A DNA stretch of 64,000 nt, from contig JANRJM010000016.1 of NCBI GenBank assembly GCA_033763975.1, forward strand, positions 1 to 64,000, in the 5' to 3' direction. Positions 59,097 to 60,721 of this stretch are shown piece after piece. The notes under the pieces were generated by a model, which did no database searches, was not told the origin of the DNA, and saw only the letters and a list, made by a program, of their open reading frames with translations. The translations under genes and the position numbers were made by a program. This DNA comes from Planctomycetota bacterium. GTDB taxonomy: Bacteria > Planctomycetota > Phycisphaerae > Phycisphaerales > UBA1924. The number at the start of each line of letters is the position of its first letter. The first letter of the stretch is position 1.

Positions 59097-59402
59097 ATGG
59101 GACGCAGTCTGAAGAAAGGGCCGTACGTCGACGAGGGTCTCTACATGAAGGTGGAGCGGCTGAACGCCTCTCGCCGGAAGGAGGCGATCAAGACGTGGGC
59201 GCGCCGGTGCACGATCGTTCCGGAGTTCGTGGGGCACACGTTCAAGGTGCACAACGGGAAGCAGTTCCTGGACGTGTTCGTGACGGAGGACATGGTGGGG
59301 CACAAGCTGGGCGAGTTCAGCAGCAGCCGCACGTTCCGCGGGCACACGAACAAGAAGGAAGGCATCGACGCGGGGGCGGGCGCCGGGCCGGCGAAGAAGT
59401 AA
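59097..59402 (+). CDS. rpsS: 30S ribosomal protein S19
   Basis: A 101-residue protein, [20 protein letters not shown], with [50 protein letters not shown]. It is typical apart from a Gly/Ala tail. Confidence 0.95.
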
Positions 59403-59455
59403 GGCGGCGGGTGATCAGGGGCGCGGGACCGCGCACAGCAGAAGGACGGTAAGCC

Positions 59456-60010
59456 GTGAGGATCCGAGGCAACAAACTCAAGGCGGCGCTCGAGCGGGCG
59501 GAGATGACCGTGGACCGGGCGGCGGAGGCGCTGGCCGAGCCGGGGTTCGCGAAGGACGACGCGGCGCGCGCGATCCGGAACTGGATGGCGGGTCGCGACC
59601 ATCCGCGCTGCCGCGCGTCGCGCCTGAAGAAGCTGGCGGGCGTGCTGAAGGTCGACGTGAAGGACCTGGCGGCGTTCACGAGCGAGGTGCGGTACCACCG
59701 CGGGAGCCCGCGCAAGGCGGCGCTGTTGGCGACGCTGATCCGCGGGAAGAACGTGGACCAGGCGCTGAACCTGCTGGCGTTCACGACGAAGCGTGCGGCG
59801 GTGAACATGCGCAAGTGCCTGAGCGCGGCGGTGTCGGACGCGGAGCAGGCGGAGTGCGACGTGACGCGCCTGTACGTGTCGGAAAGCCGCGTCGATTACG
59901 CCGCGGTGATGAAGCGATTCCAGCCGAAGGACCGCGGTCGAGCGCACCCGATCCTGAAGCCCTTGAGCCACATCACGATCTCGGTGGAGGAGCGCCCGTC
60001 GAGGGGCTAA
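59456..60010 (+). CDS. rplV: 50S ribosomal protein L22 with N-terminal XRE-like helix-turn-helix
   Basis: A 184-residue protein, well above the usual 110-120. The L22 body starts about residue 79 with YHRGSPRKAALLATLIRGKNVDQALNLLAF and ends with the HITISVEE hairpin. Residues 5-73 (KLKAALERAEMTVDRAAEALAE..., RAIRNWMAGRDHPRCRASRLKKLAGVLKVDVKDL) have the helix spacing and the W.AGRDHP turn of XRE/HTH_3 DNA-binding domains. GTG start at 59456. L22 lines the exit tunnel, so the extra domain would sit on the ribosome surface. Confidence 0.9.
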   Translation: MRIRGNKLKAALERAEMTVDRAAEALAEPGFAKDDAARAIRNWMAGRDHPRCRASRLKKLAGVLKVDVKDLAAFTSEVRYHRGSPRKAALLATLIRGKNVDQALNLLAFTTKRAAVNMRKCLSAAVSDAEQAECDVTRLYVSESRVDYAAVMKRFQPKDRGRAHPILKPLSHITISVEERPSRG

Positions 60011-60019
60011 GAGCGAACC

Positions 60020-60721
60020 ATGGGACAGAAGACGCATCCATTCGGGCTTCGCCTGGGCATCACCGAGGCGCACAAGAGCAGGTGGTACGCGCCCAAGGCG
60101 CTGTACGGGGAGCTGCTCGTCGAGGACGAGAAGATCCGGCGCTGGCTGGACAAGCGTCTGAACCGCAGGCCGCCAAACGCGGCGGTGTCGGACGTGCACA
60201 TCGAGCGCACGCGCGAGGAACTGAAGATCATCATCAAGACGGCGCGCCCGGGCCTGGTGATCGGCCCCAAGGGGGCCGAGGTCGAGCGGATGACCGAAGA
60301 GCTGCAGTACATGACGGGGCGCAAGGTCGCGATCTCGATCATCGAGATCAAGAACGCCGACATGGACGCGAAGCTGGTGGCGGAGAGCGTGGCGGAGCAG
60401 CTGTCGAAGCGGTCGAGCTTCCGTCGCGCGGTGAAGATGAAGGCCGAGGCGTGCATGAACGCCGGGGCGCGCGGGTGCAAGATCCGCATCGCCGGGCGTC
60501 TGGGCGGGGCGGAGCTGGCGCGGGTGATGGAAGAGAAGCGCGGCTCGCTCCCGCTGTCGACGCTGCAGGCGAACGTGGAGTACGGGGTGGCGGAGGCGCA
60601 CACGACGTACGGGGTGATCGGGGTGAAGTGCTGGATCTTCAAGGGCATGTTCACGACCGAGCGGACGGAGGAAGAGTCCAACGCGGCGGGCGGTCGGGCA
60701 CGGGCGCGTGGCCGCAAGTAG
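60020..60721 (+). CDS. rpsC: 30S ribosomal protein S3
   Basis: A 233-residue protein: MGQKTHPFGLRLGITEAHKSRWYA, KH region KTARPGLVIGPKGAEVERM and RAVKMKAEACMNAGARGCKIRIAGRLGGAELARVMEEKRGSLPL. It has a Gly/Arg C-terminal tail. Confidence 0.96.
   Translation: MGQKTHPFGLRLGITEAHKSRWYAPKALYGELLVEDEKIRRWLDKRLNRRPPNAAVSDVHIERTREELKIIIKTARPGLVIGPKGAEVERMTEELQYMTGRKVAISIIEIKNADMDAKLVAESVAEQLSKRSSFRRAVKMKAEACMNAGARGCKIRIAGRLGGAELARVMEEKRGSLPLSTLQANVEYGVAEAHTTYGVIGVKCWIFKGMFTTERTEEESNAAGGRARARGRK

Follow-up and report, generated by a model that had tools for sequence, protein, structure and literature searches.

A ribosomal protein L22 with a predicted XRE/Cro-C1-type helix–turn–helix domain at its N-terminus in nine families of Phycisphaerae

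The stretch of DNA analysed in this work (64,000 nucleotides, called the window below) carries ribosomal protein genes in the S10-operon order L3-L4-L23-L2-S19-L22-S3-L16-L29-S17-L14-L24-L5. The rplV gene (59456..60010, + strand), recognized as an open reading frame and by its Pfam match, starts with GTG and encodes an L22 of 184 amino acids with an N-terminal helix–turn–helix (HTH) domain, compared with about 110 residues for an ordinary L22. It lies between the S19 gene upstream (59097..59402, + strand) and the S3 gene downstream (60020..60721, + strand), both assigned from their reading frames and from operon comparison, which agrees with the operon position ascribed to it in an earlier note on this DNA. 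The reading frame opens one codon 5' of the GTG, and a Shine-Dalgarno word, AAGGA (59442..59446, + strand), stands in the sequence 9 nt before it. The Pfam model Ribosomal_L22 (PF00237) spans residues 78–177 with an E-value of 1.5e-30 (105.8 bits for a cut-off of 28), the NCBIfam L22 model (TIGR01044) gives 88.7 bits against a curated cut-off of 73.65, and a protein search finds a single L22 match in the genome. By every test run on the sequence, namely profiles, operon place and copy number, the protein is uL22, and its fold is also that of uL22 (9h91_S, Z 17.3). It differs from known uL22 by an extra N-terminal globular domain; a domain of this kind is seen in no solved uL22 among the best 60 of 65 profile matches, whose best-scoring stretches begin no earlier than profile position 63. 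A search of the same genome for a free-standing copy of the extension gave no good match, the next best after L22 having an E-value of 0.047. Further downstream in the window, ribosomal protein L5 (62658–63392) has a long low-complexity N-terminal extension rich in lysine, glycine and proline.

The predicted structure divides the protein into an XRE/Cro-C1-fold domain, residues 1–71 (59456..59668, + strand, as are all features that follow), supported by the model, structure comparison and profile matches of relatives, and L22 proper, residues 72–184 (59669..60007), which is delimited by Pfam and the full-length model and opens with a strand at 72–81. The four predicted helices cover residues 5–14 (59468..59497), 19–26 (59510..59533), 33–44 (59552..59587) and 54–64 (59615..59647). 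Helix 3 occupies the position of the recognition helix and ends with the invariant N42-W43 and residue 44, and it is joined to helix 4 by a conserved basic loop, AGRDHPRCR (residues 45–53 in the alignment, 59588..59614). The earlier note had described the helix spacing and a W.AGRDHP turn of XRE-type domains, and both the alignment, where the turn reads NWMAGRDHP, and the predicted structure agree with it. It had also counted an extension of 78 residues; the N-terminal domain is indeed present, but it is about 71 residues long, since L22 proper opens with a strand at about residue 72.

The AlphaFold model of the extension, computed with 40 alignment rows, has a mean pLDDT of 89.6, and the model of full-length L22, in which the L22 strand starts at residue 72, has a pLDDT of 90.6. 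Among the best 50 of the 480 chains aligned by VIA-align, Z ranges from 8.0 to 10.0; the top chain is CylR2 (2xiu_B, Z 10.0, rmsd 1.9, 65 residues aligned), and C.Csp231I, HppE, SinR, P22 c2 and 434 Cro are also in this group. Foldseek against the PDB gave no match at an E-value of 0.001 or better; the best, at 0.010, is a phosphonate dioxygenase, and the best 50 of 280 matches are mostly XRE-type regulators and phosphonate enzymes. With Pfam at E ≤1, relatives match HTH_31 (27/40), HTH_26 (22/40) and HTH_3 (19/40), with a best E-value of 2e-7, while no HTH model of Pfam (E ≤1) or NCBIfam matched the window's own copy. A profile of the extension matched PDB sequences weakly, the nonstructural RNA-binding protein 1knz_A at E 0.0039 and then the HTH domain 7t5u_A (CapH) at E 0.29. 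The predicted turn between helices 2 and 3 has six residues (27–32), to which one relative, L008, adds nine alignment columns; the classical turn of XRE domains at this place is shorter than six residues. Taken from these models and comparisons, the extension very probably has the XRE/Cro-C1 fold, as the earlier note had proposed, with CylR2, C.Csp231I and SinR among its nearest structures.

The question of whether the extension is translated was addressed with 103 homologous loci, 73 of which were fetched by narrow exact peptide patterns over all species of the collection and 30 by a protein search of the phylum. They were first sorted by start position, which gave 66 loci with a long frame and a start at the matching place, 36 short L22s, mostly starting eight codons before reference residue 80, and one fragment (L073). 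The sorting was then verified with the extension profile, and one locus, L065, was left out of the extended set, its upstream reading being neither HTH-like nor matched by the profile. All 65 loci kept, which represent 62 distinct proteins, match the profile (weakest E 7.2e-13) and have GTG or ATG as the far start. A Shine-Dalgarno word of at least 4 nt precedes this start in 57 of the 62 distinct proteins, to be compared with 29 of 35 distinct short L22s at their own start, and an internal start with such a word within codons 63–84 is found in 13 of the 62. In all 13 pairs of near relatives tried, dN/dS within the extension is 0.04–0.33, higher than in the L22 core in 12 pairs, the exception being L035/L036; by this measure the extension is under purifying selection. 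That translation would truly begin near residues 68–78, the upstream frame never being made, is extremely improbable. The window L22 does have in-frame GTG codons at 68 and 78, the first of which is preceded by a 4-nt AAGG at 5 nt, the second by none, but a misread start is rejected because of the class-wide amino-acid conservation, the dN/dS values and the conservation of the far start with its Shine-Dalgarno word. The earlier note had held the GTG start to be genuine rather than the start of a misread upstream ORF, and had named a start near residue 75 as the contrary case; the far start, conserved in 65/65 loci, speaks for the former. Start-site callers may trim proteins of this kind.

In the genomes searched, the domain is restricted to part of one class. 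Among 392 Planctomycetota genomes, the extension profile matched 26 at E ≤0.01; in 22 of these, all from the class of the window, the match is in an L22 frame, and the remaining four contain five weak places (best E 9.4e-4) outside the L22-sized protein-search matches, so that the extension was found in L22 nowhere else in the phylum sample. In a set of 298 genomes of the class, which overlaps with the phylum set, the profile matched 91, in L22 for 89 of them (for G561 and G586 the link to L22 came from additional searches) and not in L22 for G231 and G497. L22 itself was found in 283 of the 298 genomes. The extended L22s belong to nine families, f1 (28 genomes), f5 (2), f6 (6), f7 (4), f8 (14), f114 (24), f115 (9), f117 (1) and f118 (1), and in these families every L22-bearing genome has the domain (89/89), two additional f8 genomes giving no L22 match. 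In the other families of the class the profile search found it in none of 194 L22-bearing genomes. The conservation across Phycisphaerae, which the earlier note had proposed to check, is complete among the L22s found in nine families and nil in the others. Outside the phylum, the scan of all species with exact peptide patterns, which are narrow, returned two Pseudomonadota loci, both short L22s, and the extension profile has no match in these two genomes, a result of little weight. An HTH-L22 of the Phycisphaerae type is also encoded on contigs L003 and L041, whose records are named Leptolyngbya sp. PLA1 and Vicinamibacteraceae bacterium PLA1; these names look wrong.

In a tree of 12 other ribosomal proteins (72 genomes, LG+G4, quick search), families f1 and f5 lie apart from a clade formed by f6, f7, f8, f114, f115, f117 and f118, with plain lineages between them. 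This tree rejects a single clade of all 35 extended rows (p-AU 8.9e-6) and is compatible with f1 and f5 as one clade (p-AU 0.572), which would make two places of occurrence out of the three changes drawn. In the tree of the L22 core (98 columns) the extended rows are also apart in the best form, and one clade is not rejected (p-AU 0.117; 0.309 for f1 and f5), so far as these sequences go a transfer of L22 or of its N-terminus being possible. The profile built on the pattern-scan loci matches the L22s of the second clade at E-values of 3.5e-22 to 2.8e-13, with three weaker matches (G331, G311 and G586) down to 2.1e-6. Because the domains are alike and the junction is shared, with the same 42-residue spacing in 65/65 loci, these comparisons make it most likely that the fusion arose once and was followed by several losses or by transfer. 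A domain remnant in plain relatives was also considered: some plain L22 matches align upstream of the L22 start, some of them with stop codons inside, and these alignments were taken as chance, since the extension profile reaches no better than E 1.2 in any of the three frames over the 300 nt that precede each of the 36 short starts. The domain would also lack room in 36 of the 37 plain operons, where no more than 97 nt separate the end of S19 from the L22 match; the remaining one has no S19 in the stretch. One of the compared operons (L190, G448) exceeds the others by about 1.7 kb between L23 and L2.

The spacing just mentioned separates the NW pair at the end of helix 3 from an SxxK motif (62 loci were scored by regular expression, and three that it missed were added afterwards). 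The distance from M1 to NW varies from 38 to 50 among the extended loci, and hardly any linker separates the domain from the first L22 strand. An invariant spacing next to a variable N-terminal part implies, from the alignment, a fixed pose and a rigid attachment of the domain to the ribosomal core. Conservation reaches 3.47 bits for the C-terminal half of helix 3 and 2.85 bits for the loop 45–53, against a mean of 2.17 bits for the extension. Fold requirements may be enough to explain why N, W and P are invariant and G nearly so. The net charge of the first 76 residues has a median of +5 (range -2 to 9, the lowest value being that of L098), and the L22 core contains no strong extension-specific residue, the best clade-weighted difference being 0.56.

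These properties bear on the two functions that the earlier note had offered, a link to gene control and a stabilization of rRNA. DNA binding is the usual function of XRE folds, operon autoregulation is known for several ribosomal proteins, and repressors are among the nearest structures in the best 50 of 480 VIA-align chains; through its HTH, free L22 that is not yet assembled might bind its own operon, as DNA or as mRNA, or other genes, and couple ribosome supply to expression. We regard such autoregulation as unlikely. In repressors of the XRE fold it is the N-terminal half of the recognition helix that reads bases, and residues 33–38 of helix 3 are poorly conserved, at 1.54 bits, below the mean of the extension, a region that can also vary in true regulators. 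In addition, a tethered DNA reader would not need an invariant spacing to L22, and with six residues the loop that leads into helix 3 exceeds the classical turn, whose length is taken from general knowledge. A related view, that a captured repressor-type domain still reads nucleic acid off the ribosome, making L22 itself a transcription or mRNA regulator that senses surplus L22 or the state of assembly, is improbable. The domain resembles XRE/Cro-C1 regulators such as CylR2, SinR and C.Csp231I by its fold (Z from 10.0 to about 9) and by the profile matches of its relatives; it differs from them by its fusion to a ribosomal protein, the six-residue loop before helix 3 and the poorly conserved base-reading half. 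We would not class it among DNA-binding XRE regulators, given that no HTH profile matches the window copy, that helix 3 follows a long loop and that DNA binding is only putative.

Of the two functions, rRNA stabilization fits better, given the rigid spacing, the mostly positive charge and the presence of the domain in each L22 detected across nine families, together with the site known in Cutibacterium acnes, where an N-terminal extension of uL22 is described as anchoring H2, H24, H46 and the tip of H19 (PMC10085706). We consider it on balance probable that the domain is a lineage-specific ribosomal extension which clamps 23S rRNA where the L22 N-terminus lies. In this bacterium the only L22 would be made with the XRE/Cro-C1 domain fused to it, and because the domain joins the first L22 strand with almost no linker, every ribosome would have it at the same fixed position of the 50S subunit, close to the exit-tunnel region. 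There the former DNA-binding fold, through the basic loop between helices 3 and 4, would clamp the 23S rRNA helices beside the L22 N-terminus and help the assembly or the stability of the ribosome. By analogy with C. acnes, the helices gripped would be H2, H24, H46 and H19; presence in the ribosome, contact with rRNA and an effect on assembly are all presumed here.

A comparison of 23S genes looked for rRNA features that accompany the domain. A search of 44 genomes with RF02541 located 23S in 37; second copies and fragmentary matches were set aside, and 9 extended sequences were compared with 14 plain ones, then 18 extended with 14 plain; the assembly of the window gave no 23S match and is outside this comparison. 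No gain or loss of an rRNA segment or helix tracks the domain among the 18 extended and 14 plain sequences. With helix borders taken from general knowledge, the association falls short of significance around H46 and H19, whose scores are equalled or exceeded by 6% and 13.5% of windows of equal length, and is absent for H2 and H24 (43% and 41%). Because this test is negative or weak, the domain seems, at the level of sequence, to have been added to an ordinary 50S subunit and not to replace a lost helix. The five top 23S columns, 2101, 2019, 2102, 2789 and 2187, are all outside the four regions expected near L22. Bases at 2101, 2102 and 2187, which in E. coli numbering we take to be the base of the L1 stalk, distinguish extended and plain lineages more clearly than does any site in those four regions, possibly by chance. 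Some 23S genes have insertions of about 90–450 nt that resemble intervening sequences, near E. coli positions 541–560 (L208, L213), 1861–1880 (L209) and 1161–1180 (L230).

A location near the exit could also make the domain a docking platform for a factor peculiar to these bacteria that acts on nascent chains or in membrane targeting. XRE-like folds do occur in enzymes such as HppE, which to our knowledge does not bind DNA, and in ribosome-bound Mbf1 (9f9s_CN). Four proteins, uL22 among them, surround the exit (PMC5071890), but no tie to a partner was seen and the C. acnes extension is described as lying on rRNA (PMC10085706), and a docking role appears doubtful. Still further from what we expect, indeed very unlikely, is a ribosome-bound sensor of stalled or collided ribosomes, like eukaryotic Mbf1/EDF1. 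The fold class is the same, an XRE fold on a ribosome according to the title of 9f9s_CN (Foldseek E 0.15), and chain 7o81_AU, presumably Mbf1/EDF1, aligns with Z 8.1, but Mbf1 is one among many XRE neighbours. Moreover, Mbf1/EDF1 is a separate protein described as acting with uS3 of the small subunit (PMC6301793), whereas the window domain is fused in one frame to L22, on the other subunit.

The clamp on 23S rRNA that we favour has parallels among other ribosomal proteins. Extensions of these proteins are common, and those of uL22 in C. acnes, Deinococcus (about 20 extra N-terminal residues from chain ranges) and chloroplasts are, like that of the window, lineage-specific additions at the N-terminus. 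The window extension differs from these tails in being a predicted folded HTH: chloroplast ribosomal protein extensions are described as mostly in extended conformation (PMC5071890), and the passages of PMC10085706 on the C. acnes extension mention no HTH. The L22/unknown domain fusion (NF008917, PRK12279) also consists of L22 plus an added domain, but only its L22 part matches the window protein (residues 84–177), with 50 bits for a cut-off of 526. Searches of the open-licence literature listed no paper with an HTH-L22 fusion in its title or abstract opening. If our inference holds, the domain acts in the manner of other ribosomal extensions confined to a lineage, except that a folded HTH replaces the tail.

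In conclusion, L22 in these bacteria has a conserved and constrained coding extension with its own start, a predicted fold, an invariant attachment to the core and a defined distribution. A universal exit-region protein is apparently joined rigidly to a whole repressor-type fold, which every L22 found in the nine families retains. Sister families manage without it, and its role is therefore not universal; extended and plain families are natural with/without pairs for the effect of an added globular domain on the ribosome, and they offer a case for studying how a fold that binds DNA could come to serve on rRNA.
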